From Ziziphus jujuba (Eukaryota; Streptophyta; Magnoliopsida; Rosales; Rhamnaceae): 64,000 bases of DNA. Shown one piece after another: positions 11,601 through 49,735 of the stretch; the first letter of the stretch is position 1; each line of letters starts with the position of its first letter. Location of the stretch: NCBI RefSeq assembly GCF_031755915.1, contig NC_083382.1:10037501-10101500 (forward strand), written 5' to 3'. The translations under genes and the position numbers were made by a program. The notes under the pieces were generated by a model. The model was not told where the DNA came from, did not search any database, and saw only the letters and a list, made by a program, of their open reading frames with translations.

Positions 11601-11772
11601 TCCTTAAACCAGGAGTATATCTTACTGAATTAAGAGTTCTGGTGGTGCCATCATACAATTTAAACTGTACATTACCAATACCAACTACCTTGCATGAATG
11701 GTCATTCCCTAAAAGGACCTGTCCTCCCTCATACTCTTTATAGGACTGAAAGACATCAAGAACAGGACACAT
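8677..11772 (-). pseudogene. Copia pol remnant: protease region, integrase, RT, RNase H
   Basis: Reading right to left, 11772-10975 carries the end of the protease region, then the GAG-pre-integrase segment (NRLGHISEKDLYYL, ENCILVKQHRRSF) and the integrase core. DLWGP and the IDDCSRKVW segment of the core are present, but the usual TDNG reads TGNG, so a catalytic aspartate is replaced by glycine. 10844-10227 is the integrase C-terminal part. 10095-9844 and 9804-9547 are reverse transcriptase with LLLYVDDMLLA (the YVDD active site). 9351-9094 links to RNase H at 9024-8677 (ALSTTEAEYMAVTEAAKE, DSQSAIHLCKNP). Stops and frameshifts separate these blocks, so no functional polyprotein can be made. 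Confidence 0.9.
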
Positions 11773-11879
11773 ATGAAATGAGCATCCTGAGTCTAGAACC
11801 CATTCTGACTTATTTTGCTCACTGTCACAACAAGTACCCCCCCAGAATCTTCATTAGAAGAAACAACAGCAAGATCACC

Positions 11880-12641
11880 ATTTTCATAGTTCTTGCTTTT
11901 ATCATCTCTCTTTTTCTTATAACAAAACTTCATAATATGGCCTTCTTTCTTATAGTAGTAACATTTTCGACCCCTTGTTCTAGACTTAGATCTAGAGTGG
12001 TCTCAGCTCTTCCCCCTAAAGTCAATATTTCCATAATTCCTAGTGGCACTTCTACCCCGAGCACTAAGCCCTTCACTCTTTGACTCAGACTTTAATTCTA
12101 TATCCCTGGACTTTAAGGAACTGACCACTATATCCAAAGACAGAGAATTATGACCATACTTGATGGCATTCTTGACATCTCTAAAAGACTCAAGCAGAGA
12201 ATTTAACAAAATTATAGCATTATGTTCATCACTGAACGTAACTTTAAAATTAGCCAGATCCAAAATTATTCGATTAAACATGTCAAGATTAGAGTCTAAA
12301 TCCTTAGAAGTATCCATTTTAAAGCCAAAGAATTGTTCTAGTAACAAAATTCGATCTGGAAGAGACCTTACCAAATAAAGCTGTTCTAGTTTGTTCCACA
12401 TCTGAGAGATAGTTGTTATCTCGTCCACCTTCCTGAGAACACTGTTCGAGAGATGCAGGATGATTGTACTCAAAGCAATCTTGTCCATCTCCAATCTCTT
12501 GTCCTCTGGAAGATCGGTAAAGAATGACCCGTCAATGGCTTTAGCAACTTTCATATGCACGAGGACTGCCCTCATCTTCTTCCTCCATAATAGAAAATCC
12601 CCTTTGCCATTAAAGATCTCCACCTTTATTTTAGAAGCCAT
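11880..12641 (-). pseudogene. Copia gag remnant
   Basis: The open frame 12641-12003 starts MASKIKVEIFNGKGDF and shows the copia UBN2-type Gag fold (FLLWRKKMRAVLVHMKV, LYLVRSLPDRILLLEQFFG). Downstream, about 11925-11970 encodes a zinc knuckle reading CYYYKKEGHIMKFC. The second cysteine of the expected CX2CX4HX4C is a tyrosine (TAT, consistent with a G to A change from TGT). An in-frame stop separates it from the main Gag frame. Confidence 0.85.
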
Positions 12642-12716
12642 TGTTAAATCTTCAAGAAACCCAAGATTCTAAGAGTAGAATCTTTCTAAACACATTCAGA
12701 AGATTCAAGAAGGCAA

Positions 12717-25700: not shown

Positions 25701-28700
25701 ATTCTTGTTATAGTCCTATTTTGATTTTAATTTTTTTAAATGTTTAAACAAAAAAATTGAAAAAAAAAAAAAAAAAAAACAGGCGAACGCATTTGTTGAG
25801 GAATGCGTCGCCTATTCTTGTATTTGGCGACGTATTGTTTATTAACCAATTTTTGCTGTATTAGTATATATATGTAATTTGGCCTAGTGGTGTAGTGATT
25901 TCTTGAGAATGTAGGAGGTCTTGGGTTCAATTCTTCTTATGGTCCTATTTTGATTTTATTTTTTTTAAATGAAAAAAAAAAAGAACATTGTATTTGGCGA
26001 CGCATTGTTTCAATAATGCGTCACCTAACACTATATTAACCAATTTTTGCTTTATTAGTACATATAAGCGATTTGGCCTAGTGGTGTGGTGATTTCTTGA
26101 GAGTGTAGGAGGTCCTGGTTCAATTCTTGTTATGGTCCTATTTTGATTTTATTTTTTTTAAATGTTTAAACAAAAAAATTGAAAAAAAAAAAAGAACAGG
26201 CGACGCATTTGTTGAGGAATACGTCGCCTGTTCTTGTATGTGGCGACGCATTGTTTCAATAATGTGTCGCCTAACACTATATTAGCCAATTTTTGTTGCT
26301 GTATTAGTACATATAAGCGATTTGGCCTAGTGGTGTGGTGATTTCTTGAGAGTGTAGGAGGTCCTGGGTTCAATTCTTTTTATGGTCCTATTTTGATTTT
26401 ATTTTTTTTAAATGTTTAAACAAAAAAATTGAAAAAAAAAAAGAACAGGCGACGCATTTGTTGAGGAATACGTCGCCTGTTCTTGTATGTGGCAACGCAT
26501 TGTTTCAATAATGCGTCGCCTAACACTATATTAGCCAATTTTTGATGTATTAGCACATATAAGTGATTTGGCCTAGTGGTGTGGTGATTTCCTGAGAGTG
26601 TATGAGGTCTTGGGTTCAATTCTTGTTATGGTCCTATTTTGATTTTATTTTTTTTAAATATTTAAACAAAAAAATTGAAAACAAAAAAAAAAGAACAGGT
26701 GACGCATTTGCGTTGCCTAACACTATATTAACCAATTTTTGCTTTATTAGTACATATAAGCGATTTGGCCTAGTGGTGTGGTGATTTCTTGAGAGTGTAG
26801 GAGGTCTTGGGTTCAATTCTTGTTATGGTCCTATTTTGATTTTATTTTTTTTAAATGTTTAAACAAAAAAATTGAAAAAAAAAAAAAAGAACAGGCGACG
26901 CATTTGTTGAGGAATGCGTCGCCTATTCTTGTATTTGGCGACGCATTGTTTCAATAATACGTCGCCTAACACTATATTAGACAATTTTTGCTGTATTAGT
27001 ACATATAAGTGATTTGGCCTAGTGGTGTGGTGATTTCTTGAGAGTGTAGGAGGTTCTGGGTTCAATTCTTGTTATACAAATGCGTCGCCTGTTCTTGTAT
27101 TTGGCGACACATTGTTTCAATAATGCGTCGCCTAACACTATATTAACCAATTTTTGCTGTATTAATACGTATAAGTGATTTGGCCTAGTGGTGTGGTGAT
27201 TTCTTGAGAGTGTAGGAGGTCCTGGGTTCAATTCTTGTTATAGTCCTATTTTGATTTTTTTTTAAATGTTTAAACAAAAAAATTGAAAAAAAAGAAAAAA
27301 GAACAGGCGACGTATTTTTTTTTTTTAAATGTTTAAACAAAAAAATTGAAAAAAAAAAAAAGAACAGGCGACGTATTTGTTGAGGAATGCGTCGCCTGTT
27401 CTTGTATTTGGCGACGCATTGTTTGAATAATGCGTCGCCTAACACTATATTAACCAATTTTTGCTGTATTAATACATATAAGTGATTTGGCCTAGTGGTG
27501 TGGTGATTTCTTGAGAGTGTAGGAGGTCCTGGGTTCAATTCTTTTTATGGTCTTTTTGATTTTTTTTTTTAAATGTTTAAACAAAAAAATTGGAAAAAAA
27601 AAAAAAGAACAGGCGACGCATTTTTTGAAGAATGGGTCGCCTGTTCTTGTATTTGGCGACGCATTGTTTCAATAATGCGTCGCCTAACACTATATTAACC
27701 AATTTTTGCTGTATCAGTATATATAAGTCATTTGGCCTAGTGGTGCGGTGATTTCTTGAGAATGTAGGAGGTTCTGGGTTCAATTCTTGTTATGGTCCTA
27801 TTTTAATTTTATTTTTTTTTAAATGTTTGAATAAAAAAATTGAAAAAAAAAGAATAGGCGACGCATTTGTTGAAGAATGCGTCGCCTGTTCTTGTATTTG
27901 GCGACGCATTCTTTAAGTAATTGGTCGCCTAACATTATATTAAGTAGTTTTTGTTGCATTTGTACATACAAGTTATTTGAGTTGATGGTGTGGTGATTTC
28001 TTGAGAGTGTAAGAGGGTCTGGGTTAAATTCTTGTTATGGTCCTATTTTGATTTTATTAAAAAATAAAAAAAAAATAGTGAAGAGAGAACAGGCGACGCA
28101 CAATCTTATTGGTGCGTCGCTTGTTAACTATATATATATATATATAAAAACCTCAATTTTGGTGCACTAATATTTTTATTGATTGTTATTATTAAAATAA
28201 AATTATATTGATTAAAAGATCTAAGAAAAATTAAGTGAAAAGAGAACAGGCGACGCACAATCTTACTAGTGGGTCGCCTGTTACACGTATAACAAAAAAA
28301 AAAAAAAAAACCAATCTCAGTTATGTTGCTCTAATATCTTTATGGGTTATTTGTTGTTAAATTAAAATTAGATTAATTAAAAGAACTAAAAAAAAAAAGT
28401 GGAGGAGAGAACAGGCGACGCACAATCTATATAGTACGTCGTATATTTATTGAATTTTTACTGACTCATTAACCTCAGAGTCGCGGTTTTGTTTTTTCAG
28501 ACGTGTTTGTTTCGTAGCGTCGCTAAATAAGTGCCGCTAGATATCAATTTTCGCGTAGTGAATTTATCCTCCCTCCAAAGAAAAAAAAAAAAAAAAGATA
28601 CGAATTTAATACCTATCTATTTGGGATGGATGCATTTAACACTTTAACTTGGTGCTTCTCAATACAATCTTCTTTACCTTAAAAAACATAAATAAATAAA

Positions 28701-30733: not shown

Positions 30734-33147
30734 TGACACGTGCCATTACATGAATATTTAAGTTTCCCTCCAAAAATATTTAAAAAAATCATTAATTATT
30801 ACTAGGTTGTCAAACAGTTATAATGAAATTTTATCATATCAAATATGTATATATTTAATTTTATTTATTTTTGGTAAAATTGACTGTAAAATTAATAGAA
30901 TGAATGTTTGATTATGAATATTTTATATAGAAAATCGATTGATATTGTATATATTTGATTTTATTTAGTCTTGGTAAAATTGATTGTGAAAATAATGGAA
31001 TAAATATTTGATTATAGACATTCCATATAGAAAATCAATTGATATATATATATATATAATATTTTATATAACAATTATTATGATAAGATTATTTATAATC
31101 ATTTAGGTAAGCATTATATGAAAAATAATAAAGATATACATAATTTTTCCATTAAGAGTTACATGATTTAAATTTGAATTTCACCTGTGAAAAAAATTAA
31201 ATAGGTAAATATTTTTTAGTTTGAATTCCATAAATAATTTAGCTTATAAAGTAAAAATATGTTTATAAGATAAATAATAATAATAATAACAATAATAATT
31301 AAATTATATTATGTGTATTTAATATATAGAAATTAATTGTTTACCATGAATAAAAAAATATATTTGAATTTGACTTAAATTATATAAATATATTTGAATT
31401 TAAATTTTATAGATGAAAAAAATTAGATATGAAAATTCCATAAAAGAAAAAAAAATTATATAGGTAACATTCTTGAATTTGAATTGTATAATTGAATAGT
31501 ATTATATGTAAAGGTCAAATTTATAATTCTTAACAAATTTTTATAATATCGATTAAAATAAAAATCCAAATATACTTATTAACAATAAAATTTTTAAATA
31601 AATTTTCAAATATAATTAATTATTATAAATTATTTTTAAAATTATTTATTATGATTACATATACCGTACATCGCATAATGATGGATGCTAGTATATATAT
31701 ATATATATATATAGTTTTGGCTTTGAAAAAAATGAAAGTAATTAATTTGTCTTACCTTGTTATCTTCATCTCAATTTAACAATTTCACTCTAAGGAAATA
31801 TCGTTTAAGTGGTTAATTAATTAAAATCAAAAAATAAATATATTTAATGTTGGAATTGTTTATATATTATTTAATGAATTAGGAATTATATATTGCTTTT
31901 TTTTTTTTTTTTGGGTTTGATAAACTATTTTCGTATTGCTTGATAATTATTCAAAATTAATTTGTTAGACTTCAAATTAAGCACATGATTTTTTCTGTAA
32001 CTATCCCATAAAAATATACTTTTTATAGTATACATGATTCTGATTGATATCTTCGACAGGTAGGGGAACTGGCGGGTATAGCAATTGGAGCTACAGTTTT
32101 GCTTAACATTCTGGTGGCAGGGTAAGTGACTTTTGTTTTTTTTTTCCAAACTGTATTTCGTCTTTCTCAACCTTAAAGATTTTATAGTTTAGACTTTTAA
32201 TTTTTTTTCTCAATCTTTTTAGTTTACTGCAATATGGCTTTGCTTGATTTTTGATTGCATGGCTTAACAATCAATCTCATATTATTGACATTAAATTATA
32301 TTTATTTTTAAATTAGAAAGTACTAAAATACAAAATTTAAAAGGAAACAATTGAGATTAAAACTACATTAATATTAAATAAGAAAATACCAAAAAAAAAC
32401 TGTTTTTTCAAAATCATTTTAAAACTTTACAATTTAATATATTTTAATTTGTGATTTGATATAATTTAATATGTCATGTGACGCACAAAATGGTTAATTT
32501 TTGTAAGTCAAAGGTAAAAAAAATCCAAGTTGTAACAAATTAAGAAAATTAGGATCTAAATTAGTAAATCAAAAAATTAAAAGCCAATTTCAAAACTCTC
32601 AAAATTAAGCAATTAATATTTTTTTCCCTACAATTTTCTTGCTTAAATTTGTTTGTGAAGGATTTAAACTTATTGGAATTTTATTAGGAACACAACTGGG
32701 GGTTCAATGAATCCAGTGAGAAGCCTGGGTCCAGCAATAGCAGCTGGGAATTATAAAGGATTGTGGATATACATTGTGGCTCCAACTCTTGGGGCTTTAG
32801 CCGGTACAGCTGCCTACACAGCAGTCAAACTCCCTCAAAAACATCCCAACCTCCAGGTTTCAAATGCTTCTGCAACTTCCTCCAATTATTCCACTACCAT
32901 ATCACTCTAATTAATATTATATTCTTTATATTTTCATGGTTTTTTTTTTAATTTTTTGTTTTTAGTTTTTTATTTTTTCTTTTCTTTTTATGTTGCAATA
33001 ATAAAGATTCAAATTTAAAATCATTGTCTAAAAGGCTGTCTTGCATTTATATTCATGCTTTTAGAATTAGAAAAGTAATGTCTTTATTATATGCATTTTT
33101 AATATATGTAGGTTCGTGATGAGCCTGATGATGGGGGTGATTTGTGA
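22683..33147 (+). CDS. NIP-type aquaporin (NIP5;1-like boric acid channel), 5 exons, 8-nt deletion in exon 2
   Basis: Exons are 22683-22745, 29022-29433, 32060-32121, 32688-32856 and 33112-33147. Exon 1 encodes only 21 residues ending LSLIRK, joined to LGAEFVGTF, the family's first membrane helix. Exon 2 covers IVNQKHNGAETLIGNA, GHISGAHLNPS (first half-helix), MSGGVTVPTV and TDTRA. Exon 3 starts VGELAGIAIGATV. Exon 4 carries GGSMNPVRSLGPA, the second motif. NPS plus NPV is the NIP5;1 combination; that protein takes up boric acid at the plasma membrane. Exon 2 is 412 nt where phase demands a multiple of 3. Just after AACCCGTCTG the family's VTI codons are missing 8 nt and the frame is lost, resuming as AFASFRHFPW. 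As sequenced it is non-functional. The N-terminus is far shorter than in Arabidopsis NIP5;1. Introns 1 and 2 hold transposons. Confidence 0.88.
22748..22788 (+). repeat. CT microsatellite beside the NIP exon 1 splice donor
   Basis: A TC/CT run begins within a few bases of the 5' splice site of intron 1. It is a simple repeat. Confidence 0.85.
22900..23365. repeat. CACTA left subterminal repeats, ~28-bp period
   Basis: About a dozen degenerate copies of TTTAGCGACGCATTAATAG alternate with AGTCGCCTA, spaced 27-29 bp. The last one (AGCGACGCATTATTTCTTAA then TGCGTCGCC) is an inverted pair. Subterminal arrays bind transposase-complex proteins in well-studied CACTA elements; binding here is inferred. 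Confidence 0.85.
23640..24030 (-). pseudogene. Remnant of CACTA TNP2-associated (DUF4216-like) C-terminus
   Basis: On the minus strand about 24028-23792 reads QVFCVED, stop, LESRWSIVLTSPQHRTVVEE, DVLGDTKMAHNPFVI, stop, LPSVDENDNEDE and then QILRTM before a GT donor. After an intron, a TGCAG acceptor leads to YEDVISSTRGQLPSQ and a stop near 23640. VED...RW.VVL is the pattern of the domain that follows TNP2 transposases in plant CACTA elements. Two in-frame stops make it a relic. The main transposase is missing. Confidence 0.6.
24670..28440. repeat. Array of ~15 units with tRNA-like A/B boxes and paired hairpins
   Basis: A ~190-270-bp unit recurs, marked by TGATTTGGCCTAGTGGTG at about 24913, 25128, 25398, 25645, 25874, 26068, 26317, 26565, 26760, 27009, 27176, 27481 and 27724. 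Degenerate copies sit near 24676 and 27972. TGGCCTAGTGG fits the Pol III A box TRGYNNARNNG exactly. GGTTCAATTC about 33 nt later fits the B box. A T-rich and A-rich block follows. Next come two hairpins: AACAGGCGACGCATT paired with AATGCGTCGCCTGTT, and GGCGACGCATT paired with AATGCGTCGCC. Three hairpin-only units end the array (about 28088, 28244, 28408). Minus-strand open frames of ~60-80 codons recur in each unit but are by-products of the repeat. Confidence 0.88.
29710..31691 (+). mobile_element. Probable degraded Helitron in NIP intron 2
   Basis: The left edge TCTATATTATATATATCC, followed by AAAAGTGAGTACCACGTGTC, resembles plant Helitron 5' ends. The right edge has CCGTACATCGCATAATGATG, a worn version of the 3' hairpin, and then GCTAGT, with CTAG at 31688-31691. 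The insertion lies between A and T, as Helitrons prefer. The ~2 kb inside is extremely AT-rich and has no Rep/helicase. It includes a worn ~220-bp duplication (about 30150-30300 and 30375-30500). The call rests on termini only. Confidence 0.5.
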
Positions 33148-34283: not shown

Positions 34284-34293
34284 GACAAACCAA
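34284..34293 (+). repeat. MULE target site duplication, left copy
   Basis: GACAAACCAA lies directly outside the left terminal inverted repeat and is repeated exactly at 49726-49735. Confidence 0.9.
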
Positions 34294-34392
34294 GGGGAAT
34301 TTGGCCCAATACCCTCATAGGGACGAGGTTAACGATTTTTGCCCTCTCATTTGATATCTTTTTTTTTTCTACCCTTCAATATCTATTTTAAC
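34294..34392 (+). repeat. MULE left terminal inverted repeat
   Basis: Starts GGGGAATTTGG and includes CCCTCATAGGGACGAGGTTA. Similarity with the right end fades after about 95-100 bp, near ACCCTTCAAT. Confidence 0.88.
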
Positions 34393-34939
34393 CTTAAAAC
34401 AAAAATAAAAAATTACTTACATATCCTGTTATATTTTAAACAAAACAAAAATCTACTTTTTCTTAACAAAGTTGTTTTTACACGAATACACACAAATACA
34501 AAAAACCAAAGTTGCTGTGGAAAAGCCAAACAAAAGTTCATCTCATCTCAGCACTGTCCGAGGTAATTGGTTGAATATTTTTGTTTATTTGTTACCGTGG
34601 GACCGGTGTGGGTTTGTTTTTGTGTAGATTTTTAGCCTTGCCATGACCGGTGTGGATTTGTTTTTGTGTTTATTTGTTATCTTGCCGTGAACCTGTGTGC
34701 ATTTTTATTTTTATTTTTTGTGTTTATTTGTTGCCTTACCGTTAGATACTTACAAATTTAGTACAATGAGACACTGAAACTTGTGATTTGTGTTTAGTGT
34801 TTAGAACTGGTTAAAAATGTGGAATTTTTGAAGATTTAAGTTTTTGTATGGAAGTGATTATAACCTAAGTTTTAGGTTAGATTGATATTGGGTATTAGTA
34901 GAAAATGAAGAGAGGAAAAAAATGGGACCGGTTCAGGCG

Positions 34940-35023
34940 GGTTCGGGTCAACCCGAACAAAGGTTGAAGATGGATCGAACGACATGTCGTCTGGGATGAA
35001 CGACACCCAGACGACACGTCGTT
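34940..35023. repeat. Two hairpins in the MULE left subterminal region
   Basis: GTTCGGGT then ACCCGAAC (34940-34957) is a perfect 8-bp stem with a 2-nt loop. AACGACATGTCGTCTGGG (34978-34995) pairs with CCCAGACGACACGTCGTT (35006-35023), with 1 mismatch in 18. Confidence 0.8.
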
Positions 35024-35029
35024 TTTACT

Positions 35030-35115
35030 TTTTTTGGGCTCCATCGACATCCCTGAGTAGGGAAATCAATGAATTTGATGAAGAATAATGTTAGTTTGTA
35101 ATAAAAAAACATAAA

Positions 35116-35156
<41 letters not shown>

Positions 35157-36359
35157 ACAACTTAGGGATATAAGGATTTTTACCCTGATCGAAGTTTAAA
35201 TCCTTAAGCTAAAGGTGTTATCTCACTAGTGCATGATACTCAAACTCTGTCTAGAAAACAGCTTTTATGGGTTGAAAAGAAGAATTTTTTTAAAAACGTA
35301 CTTGACCCTTAGGAAACTAATTATATTTCTTTTTGGATTTGTATACAAATAAAATAAATATAAAGTGAATGATTTGTATAGCATATATAGGTTTCGGTAG
35401 GTTTGAGCTTTTATAACCAAATCAGGTTAAACACAAGCAGTATGGGGAAGAGATGTAGCTACATCAGTTGACATACTCATCTAGAAGAGGTGGACATGTT
35501 GCAGTCCAGCTTAACCTATATGTTCATATTATAGTCTGCAACTTTCTGTGCATATTTCTTAGACATATATTGTATGGTAAGAAATAATTAAATATAACAT
35601 GAATATGATATGTATATATACAGTCTAAGGGCTGCTTTTGATTGGCTTATAACAATCTGTTTGTTGCGTAGCTTCTATGTAGTCTTCCACCTCTATACTT
35701 CACTTTCTTGTTTTTCTATTTTGGGTAAATTGACTACTTCCTCTCCAGTCATTTCAATATTTCACTTTATCTGCTTCTGCATGTAGCATCATAATTGGCC
35801 ACAATTGTGGGTTGCTCTATTAAAACCCCACTTTAGACTATAGCTACATTAGAAATCTTAGTTGCTTTTCAGACCTTCTTTTTTCTTTTAAGTTTTTTCT
35901 TCTTCCTTTTTGCTAGGGTAATTTATTACTAAAAATCAGTACTTGGAGATAAGAGAAAAATACTTTATGATTAATTAGAATTGAAGTTGAGAATTCCAGA
36001 GTTAGTACTTTCTAAAGGTATAGATATATATATATAGAAAGAGAGAGAGAGAAGATCAGTGCATAAAATTTTAGGTACATGGTTAGCTAGAAGCAAACAC
36101 GCAAACACTTTATCCCCAAAAAAGAAAAAAAAATTAAAGAAGAAGAAGATAGAAAGATTTAGAAGTAAACACACTGCTATACAGTAAATATTCAGTAAAT
36201 GTTTTGTAGATGGCACACACAATATCCTTAGGAAGAGAGCGTATGAAATTGAGGATTGCGGATATTTATATATGTATGTATACATAGTTGACAATGTCGT
36301 TAAAGGTAGATAAAAGTTAATTAATGTTGTCAATGTACATTTGTAGGTTGTACTTTATA
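35030..36359. other. MULE internal non-coding stretch
   Basis: AT-rich, with AT repeats near 35121-35151 and an AG run at 36038-36052. It ends with the upstream part of the Ulp1 gene. No other feature is seen. Confidence 0.4.
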
Positions 36360-39300
36360 ATGGCACCAAAAAGGAACTTGCGACTTCAACCGAAGAAGGG
36401 AGTTAAGAAGGTGGAAAGTAAAAGACGCGGTGGTAGCACAGCAGCACCCGACTCTAAGCGTCAACAAACTACTAGGCAGAAATCCAAAGCTGAGACGGAA
36501 AGCGCCAAACTTCGAGGGCACGTTCCACTTTCCTTTCCCCCATCTGACATGGTAAGTTTTATATTCATTTATGTTGTTTTGTGCGGTAAATGATAAGACA
36601 TCTGTCAGTATTTATTCATGAATGTGAAAACACAAGAAAAACTTCACCCTATCGGGCCATCGGTAATTGCCGATAGGCCATCGAGATTTTTTTTAGTTCA
36701 TTGTAGGTTGATTACCGATGGTTACATCGGTAATTACCACTTGTGCAAAAATGTGAACTCATATGTCTTAAGATTTAGTTGGAAATTATTATTATAAAGT
36801 TAGGGTGGAAAAATAGGGTATGATTAAATCGTTGATGTCAGTTCCATTTATGTAATTCATTTTGCAGCCCATCGATGCTCCAAAGGAATGGATCTTTCAG
36901 GGTGCCGATATATTTAAAGTTAGGGCACATTCATTCAGGAATCCAATAGAAGCGAACAAAGTAATTACAAGTGTCCTCACAAGTGAGCAGTTGGAAAAGT
37001 ATAGACAAACATGTTTTGGACACTTACTTGAAATGAAGAACCTCCGATTCTCTGGTCAGGTAGTGCATCACCTGCTTTGCAGACAAGTTGTGTCCAACAA
37101 TCTAGAAGTACTGGAGTTTAACTTCGGCGGATCTGGAGTGCGATTTACGAAGTGGGAATTCGCACTCATTAATGGCTTAAAGTTTTGTAGGTACCCTTCG
37201 ATGTATGATATGCAAATTTCCAAAGGAAAGGAGCTGCTCACGAGGTTGCTAGATGACAGGACTGACTTGAAACCGCCCGAACTGGAACGACTATTCAAGG
37301 GTACACTTTTTGTGGATGATTGGGATGATGTAAGAATTACGTTACTATATTTCTTAGTTCATGGTGTACTCGGAATGGATCCGAAGGTTCAAATAAATAG
37401 AAAATTCATTGATTTAGTTGCTGATATCGAGGTATTTAATTCCTACCCTTGGGGCATTCTGAGCTACAAGGAGACAATCAACTCATTCCACAATGCATTC
37501 CAGCATAGAGGACGTGCAGTAAAGAATAAATCACAGTATTATGACCTAAAAGGTTTTCCATTGGCGTTTCAGGTACGGTAATATATTTAATACATATAGC
37601 GTTTACTTAAAAATTATATTTAATAACCTATAATTTATATTTTGTAGTTGTGGGGGTTTGAAGCAATCCCTGATTTTGGTAACCAATTTGCTGACCGGTG
37701 GGAAATCCGTTGTCCGAGGATCCTTGGATGGCATGCTACAAGTCAACCGAATCATTTTGCTGTCCATAATTGGTTCACCTCAAATAGCAATGTCAGGCAA
37801 ATTTTTTTTAGACTACATGGTACGACTACATTCAAGTTACATTACCATAGTCAGTTTCCAAATTTATTTTTTTTTCCTTTTTTCATTTCATGTAGTATGT
37901 TGTGCACTGGAGGTTAGATGCTACTGATGAGGAGAAGACTATGGATTACTGGCGAACAATAGCAGTTAACATACATGAAGTTTGCTACACGTCACCTCCA
38001 CTTGTAGCACCAATAGTTGGCGCTAAAGATGTTGGCGCTAAAGATGCGTCCAAAGCTTAGGAGCATTCTAGTGGTCCTCCAGATGCTAATTTCAGGGTAT
38101 GCAATTGTTACTTGCATGCAAATTTGTATTTCATATGTTTTACTAATATATGTTGACTTATGTTTTGGATATTGATATTGATTAGCTTGCTTGCTTGGAG
38201 GCAAAATTTGATGAATTAAATAAAGAGATGGCAGCGTTAAGAAAGATGTTTAGTTCTGTTATTGACCAACAAAAGCATCAGGTATCATTTAGACAACTTA
38301 GTATACTTTAGTGTTTCAGCATTATTAAATTATATATTGTAATTCAGCAATTATTTGTTGTTAGAGTTTGGGAACTGCAAAATAACCATTGTGTTTTGCA
38401 GGCCGAACATCATATGCACAGCCATTCACCGTCATCTTCGGTTCGACCATCATCCCCTGTGGCACCGTCATTCGGAGAGCAAGCCGAAGAATTTGATGCA
38501 CCCATAGACGGTTCCAATGGTAGGAAGGAGGATGATGATTGTACTACACCATTTGAGCCTATCGTACCTGGAGGACCCTATGTGGAGGATTCCTGGGCTT
38601 TGGTGCCATATCGGCCTTTGCATTTCGGGTGGGATATCGATGCTTCAGCTGACAGTCCATATCATGACCAATCAGCTGAGATTGAGGTGGAAGATTTGAC
38701 ACATAACGTTGGTGATACAAGCCGATTCGGTAGAGTTTACCACCAGTCACATCACGTCATCTCTCCTTACACCGACCCGTGTAAAAAGAAGGTCAAATTT
38801 AATCTTAATCGACATATTGATGCATTGAAGGAGAGGGCGTTCGATGAGTGGTATAGGGTGGCATTGAAGGAAGCAACCGTGTGTACATCTTATATGACGG
38901 TGGGAAAGAAATTTTTTGCTGAGCTACTTACCTCTGAAGGATGGTTGAATTCCGATGTCAGTTATATGCTTTATGTTCATGTAAAATCATTGTGTTCCTA
39001 CGTTTGGAATGATGTTTTATTTATCACCTCGCACTTGTTACTTATTTCCTTTAATGTGGTTTTGCAGCATACTGACACTATTTTGTATTTCATACAAAAA
39101 AGGCGGTTTGAGAATGAGAAGATGTTCATCAACACCTGTGCCATATTAGACGTGTTATTTTGGGTAAGATGATGGGATGTTACTGCGTTGCTTAATGTTA
39201 TATTGATGGTATTTTATATTGTATATATTTCATTATTTGGCAGTCATCCATCAAAAGGGCGTTATCCCATATGGAGGGCATCTCGTAGCACATATTCATG

Positions 39301-39970
39301 TGATGCGACCCTTTGTAGCTATGTGCATGGGAAGTTACCCAAACCTAGCATGCCGTGGCGGATATGTGATTATGTAAGTCCCTACATATATTTAAAAAAA
39401 TTCTCACTAAGTTTCCCATTTTGTGGATAATGAGGTTATGTTCTAATTTGCAGGTGTACATCCCTGTCAACAATGGAGACGCACATTGGTTGGCAGCATG
39501 TGTGGACTTGAAGGCCCGACATATTGATTTATACGATCCAAATATGGGAAATAAATATGTCCAGAATAAAGACTTGAACAATGCGGAATGCCATAAGTAT
39601 ATACTGCCTTACCTATTGAGGGATGGGGGATATTACGAGAAGAATCCAAACGTGCCTCCCACTTTAGATCCATTCACGATGACCATGATCACAGATGCAC
39701 CCCGCCAAGATAATGGGTATGAATGTGTTGTCATTTCAAACAACTTCTATTGCTGCTATTTTATTGTGGTTACGTGTGGAAATACATGTGGTTAGTTTTC
39801 ATTAATGCTAATCATCAATGCTATTCTGCAGGGGTGATTGTGGCGTCTACGCTTTGAAATTTATTGAATACAAGAGTAGTGAGGAGAATCCTTCATTTGG
39901 CCCCCAAGACATTATGTTTTTTAGAAAAAAATATGCTGTTGATTTGTACTTTAATAAACTTTCAATGTAG
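36360..39970 (+). pseudogene. DUF1985-Ulp1-like cysteine protease gene carried by the MULE
   Basis: Clear exons are 36360-36551 (MAPKRNLRLQPKKG, a basic N-terminus), 36868-37572 (PIDAPKEW...FPLAFQ), 37648 to ~37820, ~37897-38099, ~38187-38282 (a coiled-coil LEAKFDELNKEMAALRKMF), 38402-38956, 39068-39163, ~39245-39375, ~39455-39717 and 39830-39970. Exon 2 is a DUF1985 domain, common in plant MULE Ulp1 genes. The C-terminus is a C48 (SUMO/ubiquitin-like protease) domain with its catalytic set visible: His in GDAHWLAAC, Asp in IDLYDP, Gln in PRQDNG and Cys in GDCGVY. An in-frame TAG at 38058 and phase breaks near 37.8 and 39.2 kb suggest decay. MULE Ulp1 proteins have no proven role in transposition. 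Confidence 0.8.
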
Positions 39971-40279
39971 ATCATATATTTAATGTTATGACACTCTATA
40001 CTAATGTTATCTTAACATGCTGAACCTATCTTTAGTAATGATAACCGTTGAAAAAAAAAAAGAGAGAAAAGAAGACCCTCGGTTGTGGTAAAAATTAAAG
40101 CAAAGAAGATTATCGATGGTGCATCGATAATTCCCGATTCACCATCGGTAATTACAGAAACGCTTTTCGTAATATGAATTAACATTTTTTTTTCCTCCAA
40201 ATACTCAGCTAATAGGGTGTTTTCGGCAATAACATGTAAATTATACATTCATCAATGCCCCCAAATGTTCCGAAAACGT

Positions 40280-42080
40280 TCTCCAATTGGCAAAAATATT
40301 TAATTACCATAGGTTTCTTCGGTAATTACCGAAACCCCTATGGTAATCACATTTTACCAATTTTTTAGACCCCACAAGTCCCCTTACGTGTGTTAAATGA
40401 AAAACCATGCAACATATGGATTCTAAAATTATCCTAAGGAGAGAAAATCCCTAAATTGCTTAAAAATTTCTCAAATTGGCCAAAAAAATACGATAACTGT
40501 AGACCTTCGGTAATTCCCGATGAAACCCTCGGTAACCAACATATACCCTCTGGAAAAATTACCGAAAGTTTCATCGGTAATTACCGAAACCCCTATGGTA
40601 ATCACATTTTACCAATTTTTTGGGCCCCACAAGTCCCCTTACGTGTGTTAAATGAAAAACCATGCAACATATGGATTCTAAAATTATCCTAAGGAGAGAA
40701 AATCCCTAAATTGCTTAAAAATTTCTCAAATTGGCCAAAAAAATACAATAACTGTAGACCTTTGGTAATTTCCGATGAAACCCTCGGTAACCAACATATA
40801 CCCTCTGGAAAAATTACCGAAGGTTTCATCGGTAATTACCGAAACCCCTATGGTAATCACATTTTACCAATTTTTTGGGCCCCACAAGTCCCCTTACGTG
40901 TGTTAAATGAAAAACCATGCAACATATGGATTCTAAAATTATCCTAAGGAGAGAAAAATCCCAAAATCTTTGAAAAAGTTCTCAAATTGGCCAAAAAATT
41001 ACGATGACTGTAGACATTCGGCAATTACCGATGAAAGCGTCGATAACCAACCTATACCCGCTGGAAAAGTTACCGAAGGTTTCATCGGGAATTACCGAAG
41101 GTCTACAGTCATCGTATTTTTTTGGCTAATTTGAGAACTTTTTCAGAGATTTTGGGATTTTCTCTCCTTAGGATAATTTTAGAATCCATATTTTGCATGT
41201 TTTTGCATTTAACACACATTATGGGACTTGTGGGGTCCATAACATTTGTAAAATGTAATTACCACTGGGGTTTGGTAATTACCGATGACACCTACGGTAA
41301 TTTTTCTAGAGGGTATATGTTGGTTACCGAGGGTTTCATCGGGGATTACCGAAAGTCTATAGTCATTGTAATTTTTTGGCTAATTTGAGAAATGTTTAAG
41401 CAATTTTGGGGTTTTCTCTCCTTAGGATAATTTTAGAATCCATATGTTGCATGGTTTTTCATTTAACACACGTAAGGGGACTTGTGGGGCCCAAAAAATT
41501 GGTAAAATGTGATTACCATAGGGGTTTCGGTAATTACCAACGAAACCTTCGGTAATTTTTCTAGAAGGTATATGTTGGTTACCGAGGGTTTCATCAAGAA
41601 TTACCGAAGGTCTACAGTCATCGTATTTTTTTGGCCAATTTGAGAAATTTTTAAGCAATTTAGGGATTTTCTCTCCTTAGGATAATTTTAGAATCCATAT
41701 TTTGCATGTTTTTGCATTTAACACACATTATGGGACTTGTGGGGTCCATAACATTTGTAAAATGTGATTATCACTGGGGTTTTGGTAATTACCGATGACA
41801 CCTACAGTAATTTTTCTAGAGGGTATATGTTGGTTACCGAGGGTTTCATCGGGAATTACCGAAGGTCTACAGTCATCATAATTTTTTGGCCAATTTGAGA
41901 AATGTTTAAGCAATTTTGGGATTTTCTCTCCTTAGGATAATTTTATAATCCATATGTTGCATGTTTTTTCATTTAACACACGTAAGGGGACTTGTGGGGC
42001 CCAAAAAATTGGTAAAATATGATTGCCATACGGGTTTCGATAATTACCGACGAAACCTTCGGTAATTTTTAAAGCAAAAA
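40280..42080. repeat. Direct-then-inverted repeat array inside the MULE
   Basis: A ~255-bp unit containing CCCCACAAGTCCC, ATGCAACATATGGATTC, AATTATCCTAAGGAGAGAAAA and several GGTAATTACCGA-type motifs appears about three times forward (40300-41060). It then appears about four times in reverse (41090-42080), the switch being near 41060-41100. Copies are 85-95% alike by eye. The same short motif also occurs in the Ulp1 gene (36640-36740) and at 40105-40160. The array lies between the 3' ends of two convergent genes. Open frames here are by-products of the repeat. Confidence 0.85.
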
Positions 42081-42543
42081 CAAATTGAACGTTGTCATTT
42101 TTTAATGCCATTTGATCGCTTACTTTGTCAGAATTTATCATTAATAATGGTACATTTAGCATGTTATTGGTTGGAACACACATGATTGAAGTTGTTGGAT
42201 GGAATTGTGGTGATTCTTTTACGACGATGTACAAATGTCAATTACCGACGATGCATCTATCATTACCATTGGGCAGTAATATCATCCATGCAATAGTAAG
42301 AAACATACAAACAACTGAACCAAAAACTGAACACAGAATGATATGTTATCAAAACAATACAACAGATGAATTTGACAACAAAAGAACACATAAAACTAAC
42401 GTCTATTATGCCAAAACACATGTTATGCGGTTGAGCAACTAATTGCATTCCTGACTACATTGCATACACACGCATACCGCATAACATGGCCCCATTGTCT
42501 GAATATAGCATCGCGCGATTGATGGGCCTTCTGTTCAGTGGTG

Positions 42544-45219
42544 CTATTGGTTGGTGGTGCTATCAAGAGGTACGGCGGAAGAGCATGATCGGCTGCTGTG
42601 ACCAACCTGTTTGCACCTCCCACATCTATATTGATGACGCTCCTCTCCTTGAGATTGAATCCTCTTCTTTCTCGGTCTTCCTGACTGTTTGCCAATTTGA
42701 GGTGGAAGTACAACCTGGTTTATGACATCATCTGGAGCATGCCACTGACATTTATCTCCAAGCGGATATATGGTTTCCGAATATGCATCACGGAGTGAGT
42801 CAACTGAGTAATACGCCGAGCAAAGGAAATATGGAGAAATATGTTTGATGCTTACATGCTGCAATTGCATGGACACAAGGAAATCCATCAATGTCAAATT
42901 CCTTGCATGAGCACGTCTTATTTTCTAAGTTAACAACTCCAACGAACATGCCATGGCCAACAACTTGAAACTCATATAAGTTCATTGGCATAACACGTAA
43001 GCCTCTGCCATTATTTGAGCGCTCCTGCATGATTTTTTCCAACCAATTAGTAACAGGATTTGCATTGCAGCTGCGTTAGTTCGACGTTCATACCACCACC
43101 TTTGCAAGACATCACGAATGTGATCTAGTAATGGCAAAACAGGTTTATCCCTCGCATCAATAAGCACAGAGTTCGTGCTCTCTGCAATGTTAGTTGTCAT
43201 TATGTTGTATCTATTGCCCGAAAAATGTGATCTAGCCCATTTTGAAGGACTTGTATCCTTTAGATATTGTACAGCTTCAATACTAACCCCTTCTAAAAGC
43301 TGCATGGCCTTATCAAAATCCTCAACAATATATGCTCTAGCTGCATCATTAAAAGTTGATATAATCGCATTGACATGACCTTTAAACTTCTTAGCATGTA
43401 AATTTGTACCAAGATAATATGTGCAGTGGCCATGGTGATTATTAGGGAAAACTGTATGTATTGCCTTTGCAATGCTCTTGTGTCTATCCGATATAAAAGC
43501 TGTATTCAGATCATCCCCAAATGCTTCTTTAAAGCTCTCAAAAAATCACGTGTAAGCTACATCCGTCTCCCCAGGGCCTATTCCATAAGCAAGTGGATAA
43601 ATTTGATTGTTCCCATCTAAACATGATGCAATATATAACAAACCTCTATATCTATTCTTCAGTGTAGTTCCATCGACAGCTACGACTCTCCGCATATGCT
43701 GAAACCCTCTAATGCTAGCTCTAAGTGCCATGAAAAAATATAAAAATATGTTTTGATTGTCAGTTTCAATTCGAATAAACGTGGTCGGATTTTTGCTCTT
43801 CAAAACGTGACTCCATAAAGGAAGTTTTGCATATGAATCTTCTGGCGTGTCCCATAAACCTGATAGTGCAACTTTCTTAACGGCCCATGCTTTGTTGTAG
43901 CTCATGTTTACTCTATAATTAGAGCGAATGTCATGCACGATATCTCGAGGTTTGTATTGCCTTGAAATCCCATCAAACATTGGCTGGATGATGTCTCCGA
44001 TAACTGAACTTGTTGCTTGATGATGATCCATTTTCATGATATTTAAAGAGCAAATATGCTCATCCTTGAAGGCCCTAATCATGAAGGCCTCTGTATTATC
44101 ACCATGCAGTTTGGTAGCACGCATTCGCCACATGCAATTGTTGTTTGCACATACAACCTCATATCGGACTCTATCTGACTTTTTGACCTTGAATTCAAAA
44201 TTTCTTCTTAGTGCATAAAGACTAATCTTCTTCTGTAGCGCATTCTTACTCGCAGAGATTTGGTTTATTCGAATGATTTCATGGGCATTGACGGATGAGA
44301 AGCGATGGTTAACCCTAAGTTCAGCCATGGTTGCGGTAGAATCCTATCGAATGTCCAAATGGTTTTCGGTGCAAGGAGAGGCAAGCACATCATCATTCAC
44401 ATTATCAATTGGACTACTACCATAAGGAGACTCACCATGTCGACTATCACCAGCTGAAAGTTCCGAATGTTGGGTTCAACAAATGTCTCATAACCCATCT
44501 TCACTACGATCAGTGTTGACCTCAACCTCAAATTGTTCATCTTGATCATAATCATGTCCACGATATTCATTCATATCATTAATGTCGAAGCGCTCATTAT
44601 CATGATCATGTTCCACAGATTGCACATTGTTTTCACAAATTTGATTTTCAGAGAATCCAGCTTGAGTTTCCGGCACATGAAGTTCGGTCGCTGGGGACTG
44701 CATGTCAGCATCAGAGGTACAAGTAGCTGTCTTGGGAACTACAGATAATGGGGCAGTAGTCATAAATCCTGAACTTGTAGGTATCCTATTCACAACACAT
44801 CCAGCAGTATTAATACTCTGTGGAACCCTGGATAACACATCAACAATAAGTGGAGATCTGTCTTGAGGTCTGTGTGAACTATACTCTTCTATAAAACTTT
44901 GTAGGTCTTCATCATTTTCCACAACGTACGGCTCACATGACAAACACACATGGTATATGAACTTGAAGATTAATTGATGTTGTGTAGAATCTAAGTTGAG
45001 AGTGTTGTAGACAACATCTTCAAGTTCTGCCAACGTACAATTCCTTTTGATACGTATAATCTTCGTTCTTTGACGTTGGTATCTCCAGGTACCTTCAGAA
45101 CATACACTCCATGTTCCATCGTAGAACAGTAAAACTGAAATTTGTGACATTGAGCACAAAGTGTTTACCAATTCAAAACATACTAAGTATCTACTTGTCA
45201 CAAGCTTGTGGTAATTCAT
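42544..45219 (-). pseudogene. MURA-type Mutator transposase, decayed
   Basis: 45219-44488 is an N-terminal region with SQISVLLFYDGTW and an acidic linker. 44328-43546 begins MAELRVNHRFSSVNAHE, with the MuDR DNA-binding domain (FEFKVKKSDRVRYEVVCA) and the start of the transposase core (RVVAVDGTTLKNRYRG, first catalytic Asp). The next block has FISDRHKSIAKAI (second Asp) and HGHCTYYL. A SWIM finger follows (CSCKEFDIDGFPCVHAIAAC), then a CCHC knuckle (CGRCKQVGHSSRSC). Breaks: three stops in the 44.33-44.51 kb linker, TGA in place of a conserved Trp at 43546-43548, and single-base frameshifts near 43045 and 42840. No intact transposase can be made. It is convergent with the Ulp1 gene. Confidence 0.9.
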
Positions 45220-46000
45220 GAGGTCGTATGACTAAAAATAATTGCAATCATAGAATCTTTGCTGGAAGGTTTAACTATAATCCTGAAGCAAAAGTAATGA
45301 AAAAATACAAATGCATTTTCAGTAAATGAGTACAGAAAATGAGCCAAACAATTATGTTATTAACGCCTAGTGGAATAGCATTTTAAATGCAAATGAATAG
45401 AATAGCATTTTAAATACAAATACAAATGCATTTTCAGTAAATGAGTAAAGATAAAATACAAATGCATTTTATGTAAATGAGTACAAATGCTGTTTAAATG
45501 TTGCATATTAACACCTAGTAGAATAGCTACTCTTGACAGACATAGTGGATCAAGTAGATTAAGATGTCAAATCTGTGGCACATGTGCTAAATCATAACAT
45601 AACGTTAGCTTGAATGGATGCAATGTTAACAATGTGGTGTTCTGTGGATTATTTTGTTAAACATCATAAATATAGTTACATTTAGCATGTCATTCATTTA
45701 CAATAACATTAGAGAAGTGGACAAATTCGATTGTCCAATCGGTTTGCTTTTAGAAAATGGAAAAATTAACTATTCCGATGGAACCACCGTTAAATTTTCC
45801 AACAAGCAAGTGTTTCATAATTACTGATGGACCGCATGTAACAAACAAAGGTTGTAATTTTTAAATGGAACTCTCCGAACCATTTATGGATTGTTTTACA
45901 TAAAATAGCACCAATATAGAACTTGCACTTATATATCATGTCAAAACGTGACAAACAATGAATCCAATATAAGGAAAAAATGTATACATATCTGTACACA

Positions 46001-46039
<39 letters not shown>

Positions 46040-46884
46040 CCACATACCAGGTAATCTTTAACTCTGATTTGCAGAAACGTACAATTTAATTACACCCTTT
46101 TGAAGTGTATGGGCTCCACAATGAAGATTTTCAGTCTTGTTGTTATCACTAATGTTGGGGGTATGCAGGGAGAGTGAACTGAACTGAAGATAGTATTGTG
46201 TTTTCTGCAATGTTCGTCAATGCAAAGAAAGGCTAAAAGGTACACAACCAACAAAAGAGAAAGAGAGAGGAAGACACACAGTATTCATTTAATGTGGTAG
46301 CAGGGAGAGTAAGAGAGAGGGATAGAAGTTAATGAGGGTAGATGAGAAATGAGAGATGGTAAAAAAAATTGTTTTAATATTTTCCACTTTATTCGACAAT
46401 TAATGAGAAATGAGGGTAGATGAGAAATGGGAAACTGTTACATTTATTTTACACTTTCATATCCATTTATTTAAATAGTTTCCACAAGTGCACAATTAAT
46501 TCCCTCCTAACAACTCTCATTTGGACATACTACCATGGAGCCGTTCATGTAAAAGTGATTGGAAGAAGCTTGCAAGTTGGGAATCACATTTTACAATCTA
46601 AAACTAACTACATTTCAATGCATACCATTCAAACAAGTTCTAATGGTCAGAAACTAGAGAGTCAATATTTGAGAACTCAATTACCATCCATTTAAATTAT
46701 CATCCTTCTTATTTATTGCTTTTCCACATATCAAATAATATGGAGAATTTAATAATGAAATTGAATCCTTACACATCATATTGACAAGAGAATCATGTAC
46801 AAAAACTAAAAACAAAATCTGAATTAGCAAGAGGAAATTGTACAAGTGTTTTATGAATAAAAACTAGAGAATATTACAACTTCT
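45220..46884. other. MULE internal non-coding stretch
   Basis: AT-rich, with an AT run at about 46008-46031. It probably contains MURA upstream sequence. I see no gene. Confidence 0.4.
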
Positions 46885-47066
46885 AGAGAATATTACAGCT
46901 CCTACAAAAGCCTTTGTTGGTATCAATCCCGAATTGACCCAATGTTCCCCATCAATGTCAAAATCTCGAACACCAACTGGCACCACAATTGGTATAATGC
47001 CAAACTTTAATGACAGCATTAAAAGCATACGGGGCACCTCCACTAAAACGGAGACCAATTTGATAC
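46885..47066 (-). pseudogene. Captured fragment of an SMP-domain (NTMC2-type) gene
   Basis: After an AG acceptor the minus strand reads YQIGLRFSGGAP and, one base out of frame, RMLLMLSLKFGIIPIVVPVG then RDFDIDGEHWV and GLIPTKAFVGAV. This resembles the SMP lipid-binding domain of plant extended-synaptotagmin-like C2 proteins. Those work at membrane contact sites. Only one exon is present and it carries a 1-nt insertion. The family call comes from recognition, not a search. Confidence 0.55.
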
Positions 47067-47663
47067 CTGGATGAAATCAAACGAAATATTTGCAGTTAGT
47101 TACAATATTTAGCATACAAGTTTCAAAGAAAATAATTATTGTAAATAATTAAGGAAAATTACAAAAGCATTTTGTTTTAAATCTCAACCTAAAAAAATGA
47201 CTAACTTTTTTTAATACTTGACAAAAAAGCATCTCTAATTTAATAAAATAAGGGATTCTCTCAAAAAAAATTTAAAATAAATATAATGAGAACTGAAGAC
47301 CTTAGCTGTCCTCATATGCGATAAATGCTATATGCAAACTGTGAAGAGTAGAATTATTGGTCTAGACATCAACAAAGGAAGAAAAATATCACAAAACGAG
47401 TCATTATCAAACTGTCTTGTAAGTAGTAAGTATGCAAGTGGATATGTTGTCCCGAAGATTGAATTGGATAATCAAAATAATTAAGTCTTCCATCTAAAGA
47501 TCCTATTTCCATTCACTGACTTCATATCAGAAATTCTAAGGAAATTTCAGAAATCATGAAAGCAACAAAATATCTAAAATGTCTATAAAACAGATGAATC
47601 AGAAATGGAAAGGCTTGAAATTGTCACAGCAATTAAACATCAACCATGGTAGTCAAGGATCAC

Positions 47664-48552
47664 CTGCTGACAACACGATTAACTGTTGGTTGAACAAATA
47701 TATGAACCCTGCAAAAAGCAAGTAGTTGTCAATAAGCAAAAAATACTATCTAGTTTACATGAAAAGGAAACTCCATATGAATGATAAACTTTCTAAGTAC
47801 CATTTTCCAGGGAATCATGAAAAGGAAACTCCATATGAATGATAAACTTCCTATGTACTTTCATGATTTTCTTCATTTGGAAAATTCTCCTTCCCTGTAT
47901 CAGACTTCTTATCTGCAGAAACCTATATGAACAACATAAAATAAAAGTGAAAAATATAATGAGCACTGGGAAATAAAAACCACCATAGCTAAATAGATTA
48001 CCCTCGGTAGAAATGGAGGTTTCTGTTAACGTATAGAATGTGCAACCATGGAGTTTAAACAGTAAATTTCCCTTATGATTCTCATGTTGATAATGAAGTA
48101 AATGCAATATCTGACAGTTTGCATTAAACATTACGGAAAACAAGAATTATACATAACAACAATAACTGATAACAACTAAAACAGTTATATTTAATCATCA
48201 ACAGCAATTATAGTAATAAAATAACTATAACTACAATTATATTAAAACACAAATAAGCGTGCAGACAATTAAATTTAATAAATAAGCAGCATTCAATAAT
48301 GGAAAACACACAAGACCCAAAAAAATAATAATAATATAAAACACACAATTACCATTTTTAGAATAACCTCCACAGCACCTTTGCCATCACCAAGAGCTCC
48401 ATCTATTTCATCAATCACCTAGAGAAAAAGTAGTAACTTGTTTCTTCTGCATACATTCTAGAATAAGAAGGGTAACCATAAAAAATAATACCAACTAAGC
48501 ACTTTGGCCTCGAGTCAACAGTGACAGAGTTCATCTGCACTACATCAAGAAA
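47664..48552 (-). pseudogene. Captured exons of CTF18 (clamp-loader AAA ATPase)
   Basis: Exons on the minus strand are 48496-48552 (FLDVVQMNSVTVDSRPKCL), 48353-48418 (VIDEIDGALGDGKGAVEVIL, containing the Walker B DEID), 47922 down to ~47845 (VSADKKSDTGKENFPNEE) and 47664-47708 (VHIFVQPTVNRVVSR). They are in the order of the CTF18 protein, which loads PCNA and supports sister-chromatid cohesion. The exon between the third and fourth (sensor region) is missing. A ~40-bp direct repeat (47759 and 47817) sits there. This is a piece of a gene lacking both ends, inside the MULE. Confidence 0.8.
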
Positions 48553-48775
48553 CTAAAATGTTGTATAAAGTAACCTATAACACAAAGCAATACATTGTAA
48601 TAGCTAGGGGAAAAAAAAAAAGAAAAAAAAAACGCAAAGTAACTTTATACAAAATTTCCAATCTTGAAAGAATCTAATAGTCAGCAGATAAGAATTAATG
48701 CAGATCCATGTGAAAAAAAAACAAAAACGAAAAAAAAAAAAAAAAAAGAAGAAGCATATATATACAAATATATAC

Positions 48776-49346
48776 ATCAGGGACCAAACCCATGGATTTC
48801 ATTTGGTCAGAAAAGTAGAAAGCGTCCTGCAAGCAAGAGCTTTTCATGGTTCCAACAATGAAAGAATGGAATGTATCCCTAGTTGCCTGTACTCCATCTA
48901 GCATCATATCATCATACACATCTCTCAGCAAGAAATGCCTACCACCACCGTTATTAAAAAAAAAAAAAAAAAAAAAAAAAGAACACAACTTTCACAATTT
49001 CTCCCAAAAAAAAAAAATCCCAAAACCACAAAAAGAAAATCAAAATTAGAATCTACCTTCTCTGCGCGGTGAGAGAACCAATAACAGTGTTATACTCAGA
49101 GACATTGCTTGCGTAGTTCCTCCTTGCGTATTCCTCTATTGAAACTGCACTGAAGTATCGCCGTCCCACCTCTCGCAGCAGTGAATTACGTTGCCCTGAA
49201 TTATAACAATCTAAAATATATTATTTATTTAAAAAAAAAAACTATTTCATTATTAGCGAAACGAGTAAGAAAATGTCTGGGGAAAAACTTAAGAATTTGA
49301 AAATGGAGAGGAGAAGATTACCAGTGATTGATCGAATGAGCCTCAT
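48776..49346 (-). pseudogene. Captured 5' end of a PPR gene, open from its ATG
   Basis: Exons 49322-49346 (MRLIRSITG), 49057-49195 (QRNSLLREVGRRYFSAVSIE, then SNVSEYNTVIGSLTAQR) and 48776-48938 (FLLRDVYDDMMLDGVQ, TRDTFHSFIVGTMK, DQMKSMGLVPD) total 327 nt, exactly 109 open codons. The start resembles a mitochondrial presequence, and the rest is pentatricopeptide repeat sequence of the mitochondrial PPR class. The gene is cut after GLVPD. The first exon lies ~280 bp from the MULE right terminal repeat, so native promoter DNA may have been captured too. Confidence 0.72.
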
Positions 49347-49627
49347 GCTTTCCTACTTTGCTGTTGCCTACCTATTGCTTCTGTTTCTGCTCCTAGGGCT
49401 CTCTAAAACCCTGCAGTTTTCTCTCCGAGTCGCCTCTTCACCATTCCTTCAAAACGCACAGTTTCCAAGCTTACAATCCGGCCGATGCGAAAGGAAACAG
49501 AGGACCCCTAATGGGCTGGATATTGATTATAAGGAGAAGAGAAAAGTCGAATAAAGAAAAGAAAGAAAAAAACATAGAAAAAAAAAATAAATAAAAATAT
49601 TTAATTTGGATATAAGAGTATTTTGGG

Positions 49628-49725
49628 ATTATCAAAAATTGAAAGGGTAGAAAAAAGAAAAATATTAAATGAGAGGCCAAAAATCATTAACCTCGTCCCT
49701 ATGAGGGTATTGGACCAAATTCCCC
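49628..49725 (-). repeat. MULE right terminal inverted repeat
   Basis: Reverse complement of 34294-34392 with about ten differences. Ends ...CCAAATTCCCC directly before the target duplication. Confidence 0.88.
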
Positions 49726-49735
49726 GACAAACCAA
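49726..49735 (+). repeat. MULE target site duplication, right copy
   Basis: GACAAACCAA, identical to 34284-34293. Confidence 0.9.

Follow-up and report, generated by a model that had tools for sequence, protein, structure and literature searches.

The window analysed here, a 64,000-bp stretch of the Ziziphus jujuba genome (C4:10037501-10101500), contains a MuDR-type Mutator-like element (MULE) of 15,432 bp at positions 34294-49725. Between its terminal inverted repeats (TIRs), the element carries a gene with DUF1985 and Ulp1 (Peptidase_C48) domains, a head-to-head array of repeats with a short palindromic motif, a decayed MURA transposase gene and pieces of host genes (Table 1). We compared it with further copies in the same genome and with known transposon systems. 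The genome comprises 393,829,984 bases on 14 contigs.

Comparison of the two ends revealed that the TIRs match at 77 of 83 bases without a gap and that the 10-bp sequence GACAAACCAA directly borders both of them. In the whole window, both strands included, GACAAACCAA is present at these two flanks only, and the chance of a 10-base identity at two fixed places is 2.8e-6 for the window's composition. The long TIRs and a target-site duplication within the range of 8-11 bp place the element among the MuDR-type MULEs and bear out the exact inverted ends and the perfect duplication that had been proposed from the letters of the window (referred to below as the sequence-only reading). When GACAAACCAA is joined to the initial 11 bases of the left TIR, the resulting string has a single occurrence genome-wide, at the present locus. 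Judged by the duplication, removal of the element would leave the host sequence with one copy of GACAAACCAA.

Two trivial explanations were considered at this point, namely that the ends are unrelated insertions of miniature inverted-repeat transposable elements (MITEs), a possibility the sequence-only reading had itself raised, or that the unit is an artefact of the assembly. We regard both as hardly credible. Even when as many as four substitutions are allowed, the 20 outermost bases of either end match the window at only these two places, so that the ends do not represent two separate MITEs. Furthermore, the duplication is common to both flanks, and the same architecture recurs on other chromosomes. 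Separate MITEs were therefore rejected as the source of the ends.

Table 1. Features of the jujube MULE (positions refer to the window)
Feature	Position	Strand	Evidence
Left target-site duplication GACAAACCAA	34284..34293	none	sequence comparison
Left TIR	34294..34376	+	same end found at other copies
DUF1985 + Peptidase_C48 (Ulp1) gene, VANC/KIU type	36360..39970	+	Pfam, relatives, VANC21 homology
Exons 1-5 of the Ulp1-type gene	36360-36551, 36868-37572, 37648-37791, 37896-38099, ~38180-38280	+	relatives
Intron-1 motif cluster, three TCGGTAAT	36657..36739	none	motif count
Exons 6-10 of the Ulp1-type gene	38402-38956, 39068-39163, 39244-39373, 39454-39716, 39832-39970	+	relatives
Head-to-head array, 255-bp units with palindromic motif TCGGTAATTACCGA	40105..42070	none	repeat analysis
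MURA transposase pseudogene	42544..45150	-	PB1-like, DBD_Tnp_Mut, MULE, SWIM, weak CCHC
Tricalbin-3 / NTMC2T5-type gene fragment	46894..47068	-	protein searches
CTF18-like exon fragment	47670..48418	-	translation; identity presumed
Pentatricopeptide-repeat (PPR) gene exons	48698..49204	-	searches
Right TIR	49643..49725	-	same end found at other copies
Right target-site duplication GACAAACCAA	49726..49735	none	sequence comparison

The protein search within the jujube genome yielded at least 204 exon matches (56 of 1786 candidates were scored). From the other copies, we sampled the outer pieces of 10 loci and the array interval of five. All 10 loci retain at least one end, five of them retain both, and at a sixth the right end is reduced to 35 bases. 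The five two-ended copies have lengths of 14.3 to 19.3 kb; two of them are flanked by exact 9-bp duplications (TTAAGAAAA and AGCCGCATA), two by duplications matching at 8 of 9 bases and one by none. Because the duplication is exact in two of the five two-ended copies, a length of 9 bp is probable for the duplication in this family, and one of the ten bases at the present locus may be identical by chance. As far as they were read, the copies share the ends, the Ulp1-type gene, the array, MURA and the fragments. The advice of the sequence-only reading to look for further copies with the same ends was hence rewarded, and its view that everything within the TIRs forms one mobile unit gains support; neither of the contrary findings that it had named came up.

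Using the proteins of relatives, we located ten exons of the Ulp1-type gene. The window's own exons matched the Pfam domains DUF1985 (E 1.3e-21) and Peptidase_C48 (E 1e-15), and the catalytic residues H, D, Q and C are kept at the positions equivalent to SENP1 in both the window gene and one relative. The DUF1985 part matched VANC21 (PDB 9lnj/9lnk) with an E-value of 4.2e-20 when a profile of eight relatives was used, 3.8e-6 with the jujube relative P0003 and 0.0085 with the window exon alone. Based on this similarity, the DUF1985 part of the jujube gene is a homologue of VANC21, and the gene is classified as VANC-related. A structure predicted for the relative P0002 from 8 sequences reached a mean pLDDT (predicted local distance difference test) of 38, too low to be of use. 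The window copy is disrupted by a stop at 38058-38060 and one frame change within exon 39244-39373. The idea of an intact Ulp1 gene beside a dead MURA was dropped, as the comparison with relatives exposed both lesions. The Ulp1-type protein and the transposase both have their nearest relatives among Ziziphus jujuba proteins.

Separate pieces of the MURA gene matched DBD_Tnp_Mut (3.1e-9), MULE (8.8e-7) and SWIM (6.7e-11) in Pfam, which together represent the Mu DNA-binding domain, the MULE/DDE core and the zinc finger of a MURA transposase, though the protein is not intact. The motifs AVDGT, ISDRH and NIAES are found in its translation, and we take them to carry the D, D and E of MURA. Four in-frame stops (frame 0: 44490-44488, 44478-44476, 44346-44344 and 43548-43546) lie upstream of and inside the core, and near the SWIM motif the frame changes twice, in agreement with the decay that had been suspected for this gene. 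The public protein relative P0009 has an open frame across the transposase core. In each of six other genomic copies, the part matching P0009 contains one to five stops, and decay of the transposase is therefore common in the family. With a C48 gene that keeps its catalytic H, D, Q and C beside MURA and within TIRs, the element qualifies as a ULP1-carrying TIR-MULE.

The palindromic array, also noticed by the sequence-only reading, proved to be real. Its full units form two inverted arms at 40302-42070, preceded on the left by a diverged unit. In its complete form, the half-site TCGGTAAT gives the palindrome TCGGTAATTACCGA. All 25 occurrences of this half-site in the window are inside the element: 20 in the array, three in the first intron of the DUF1985 gene, and one each to the left and right of the array. 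For the element outside the array, 0.34 occurrences would be expected. The coding exons (5,136 bp) and the window flanks contain none. Half-sites on the same strand are spaced by 22, 45 and 67 bp, distances to which we attach no weight.

The array was found in all five further copies read, with 33, 21, 28, 31 and 13 motifs, the last of these copies being read from inside the array, with its gene side seen at L015. The number of full units per arm is 3+3 in the window and 3+6, 3+2, 3+4, 4+4 and 0+3 (a cut copy) in the others. Across 45,764 bp of right flanks from eight copies we counted one TCGGTAAT, and across 14,238 bp of left flanks from eight copies none. Of 29 copies compared, which are the best matches retrieved that include exons 1 and 2, 26 have TCGGTAAT in intron 1; one retrieved locus was a further piece of the same gene. 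A divergent copy of the P0002 subfamily, whose gene DNA is 76-79% identical, has 14 motifs in the 3,000 bp after the gene, where they are located on a repeat with a period of 499 that resembles the 255-bp unit only over stretches of 24 to 90 bases. Since this copy keeps the motif on another repeat, the motif appears to stay while its scaffold changes.

A nested origin of the array was also considered, in which it would be a separate foldback or CACTA-like transposon within the MULE and unrelated to the DUF1985-Ulp1 gene. The 10-bp direct repeat TTAAAGCAAA is present at both array edges in the window (40095-40104 and 42069-42078; null P 0.062), and a CACTA-type element about 6 kb away also has repeats of ~245 bp with a palindromic motif. 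However, TTAAAGCAAA is single, on the left, in all four other copies with the left edge read, despite the presence of the array, and its doubling in the window copy looks like chance. The position of the array is moreover constant in all five copies read with a varying number of units, and the motif is present in intron 1, too. We found no termini of the array's own with a target duplication: none of 16 CACTA end pairs combines a matching inverted repeat with a 3-bp duplication, and one tested pair shares GTG but only a CACTG core. On the evidence of the other copies, this candidate was rejected, and we consider it very improbable.

Sequence-specific anti-silencing has been worked out in Arabidopsis. 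According to Hosaka 2017 (PMC5735166, Fig. 5), DUF1985 is one of the two domains of VANC and DUF287 the other. The same paper reports binding of VANC proteins to short motifs, which are packed into the introns and remaining non-coding DNA of the proteins' own family; it also reports that the targets are fast-changing tandem repeats and that VANC induces an element-wide loss of methylation. The motifs given there are YAGTATTAY and AGTTGTCC/AC, and those of VANDAL21 share one orientation. In the review PMC13317346, Ulp1-bearing VANC genes are reported to recognise own-family motifs and the Ulp1 domain to be conserved in eudicots; it cites Sasaki 2022 (EMBO J) on antisilencing systems of Mu-like transposons in eudicots. 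The jujube family resembles the VANDAL/VANC systems (VANC21, VANC6) in its DUF1985 homology, in a short own-family motif in non-coding DNA and in the turnover of the repeats. In the sequence read, this motif is concentrated in the non-coding DNA of the family and sits on dynamic repeats, as in a VANC system. In contrast to VANDAL/VANC, the jujube family has another motif, inverted arms and an Ulp1 domain, and DUF287 was undetected.

We consider it likely that the window element belongs to a large multicopy family of ULP/VANC-type TIR-MULEs with an anti-silencing target of its own. From the DUF1985 domain, the placement of the motif, its concentration in the family and the turnover of the repeats, we infer that the protein binds the motif and relieves silencing. 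In this model, a MURA-type transposase, encoded by the window copy before its decay or by a relative, would have cut at the TIRs, and its insertion would have produced the duplication of 9-10 bp. The DUF1985-Ulp1 protein would be an anti-silencing factor of the VANC/KIU type, which would bind the half-sites in the intron-1 cluster and in the array and strip DNA methylation from the copies carrying them. Since methylation would be lifted from any carrier of the motif, copies with dead genes could still move in trans: those with intact ends and an array would be de-repressed and then mobilised. The fragments near the right end would have been captured by an ancestor and amplified along with the family.

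Several observations weigh against this model. DUF287 was not detected in three pieces of the gene or in the relatives P0001 and P0002. The motifs in the jujube array form a palindrome on inverted arms instead of sharing one orientation as in VANDAL21. Three of the 29 copies have an intron 1 without the motif, and one motif falls outside an element, in sequence that borders the C7 copy on its right. Turnover of the repeats was seen in one divergent copy. Within the units, the motif columns are only slightly better conserved than the rest (0.950 versus 0.923 in 38 aligned units), and 32 of 254 circular shifts reach this value, so the difference is not significant. Finally, the two-ended copy C10 (1.59 Mb) has no duplication.

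The array could also have another role, namely as a binding site of the transposase or as a target of host silencing through small RNAs from a hairpin, instead of being the target of the Ulp1-type protein. Transposase-binding repeats occur in other DNA transposons, and the inverted arms at 40302-42070 fold into one hairpin of ~1.8 kb (-1220 kcal/mol), which is a possible small-RNA source if transcribed. Against such a role as the sole explanation, the first intron of the DUF1985 gene has the motif as well, the motif survives the turnover of the repeats (in the one divergent copy), and its placement fits VANC targets. Although we judge this alternative rather unlikely, it is compatible with the anti-silencing model, and both could hold. 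A tentative combination, which we offer with clearly less confidence than the model itself, is that the palindrome may be the own target of the VANC-type system while the kilobase-scale inverted array would both de-repress copies with broken as well as with working genes and, when transcribed, yield a hairpin that feeds silencing. If true, attack and counter-attack would share one sequence, with hairpin small RNAs on one side and the anti-silencing target on the other. The ratio of observed to expected CpG is 0.65 in the element, 0.85 in the array, 0.63 and 0.43 in the flanks and 0.16 in a neighbouring copia-type element; as a sign of past methylation, the depletion is suggestive, but both age and the CpG contained in the motif itself act as confounders.

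Of the three host gene fragments noted by the sequence-only reading, two were identified by searches. The tricalbin-3 fragment gave matches with E<=0.001 in 351 of 371 candidates, and jujube tricalbin-3 is 84.8% identical to it over 46 residues; the PPR exons were likewise found by searches. The third fragment presumably corresponds to CTF18 exons, judging by its translation, and the longest piece of it gave no match in the searches. All three have the same orientation as MURA. Of the 10 other loci, at least six have tricalbin-like, at least four CTF18-like and at least four PPR-like sequence in the piece read on the right; these counts are lower bounds because the pieces began at a fixed distance. 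The fragment DNA of the other copies is 88-97% identical to the window. The array and the fragments are thus common to the other copies examined and not special to the window copy. As the fragments are common to other copies, their capture most likely predates the spread of the family.

MULEs that carry a ULP gene, some with TIRs and some lacking them, have been described in Arabidopsis, melon, rice and grapevine (PMC2528002). KI/Kaonashi of Arabidopsis, CUMULE of melon and Mutavine of grapevine combine a MURA-type transposase with a C48 (Ulp1) gene, as does the jujube element, and in KI the two genes are oppositely oriented as in jujube. Whereas Kaonashi has no TIRs, the jujube family possesses TIRs of ~83 bp, shared captured fragments and a head-to-head motif array, and it therefore falls outside the strict definition of a KI-MULE; melon and grapevine ULP1-MULEs include TIR-bearing versions. 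Captured gene pieces are also known from grapevine transposons, for which PPR genes are mentioned in PMC2528002. With host gene fragments between its TIRs, the jujube element resembles Pack-MULEs, but it retains a decayed transposase and accessory genes, while a strict Pack-MULE carries fragments without a transposase.

The Ulp1-type gene might also be nothing but a captured host gene travelling as a passenger, free of any anti-silencing function. The window copy of the gene is broken, and transduplicated ULP sequences are described in grapevine in PMC2528002. The DUF1985 part, however, is a VANC domain and matches the VANC21 sequence, and the gene, the motif and MURA remain together in the copies read, which makes a mere passenger improbable.

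The jujube family is TIR-bearing and fragment-carrying and combines a VANC-type Ulp1 gene with an inverted, target-like array; judged by titles and abstract openings, no description of the jujube family was present in the literature searched. A large family in a fruit tree that has a VANC domain and a candidate motif permits a direct test of the co-evolution of protein and motif. The same family can be used to test if the Ulp1 domain is important and by what means copies persist whose genes no longer work. Being short and explicit, the candidate motif suits a binding assay.

The insertion site appears to be intergenic. On the left, the last exon of an aquaporin (MIP) gene was found at 32668-32910, and on the right the N-terminal part of a FancD2 gene lies on the minus strand at 59.6-60.4 kb. 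Three further repeats were observed to the left of the element. A CACTA-type element at 22872-28560 has CACTAC ends and AAT on both sides. Tandem repeats of ~245 bp bearing the motif GGCGACGCATT/AATGCGTCGCC make up most of its interior, and each of the 39 GCGACGCATT sites of the window falls within this element. Remains of a Copia-type retrotransposon at 8677-12668 contain Pol_BBD, gag_pre-integrs and rve domains and display the strong CpG depletion given above (0.16 versus 0.65 in the MULE). A two-copy tandem repeat of 324 bp is located at 5055-5695.

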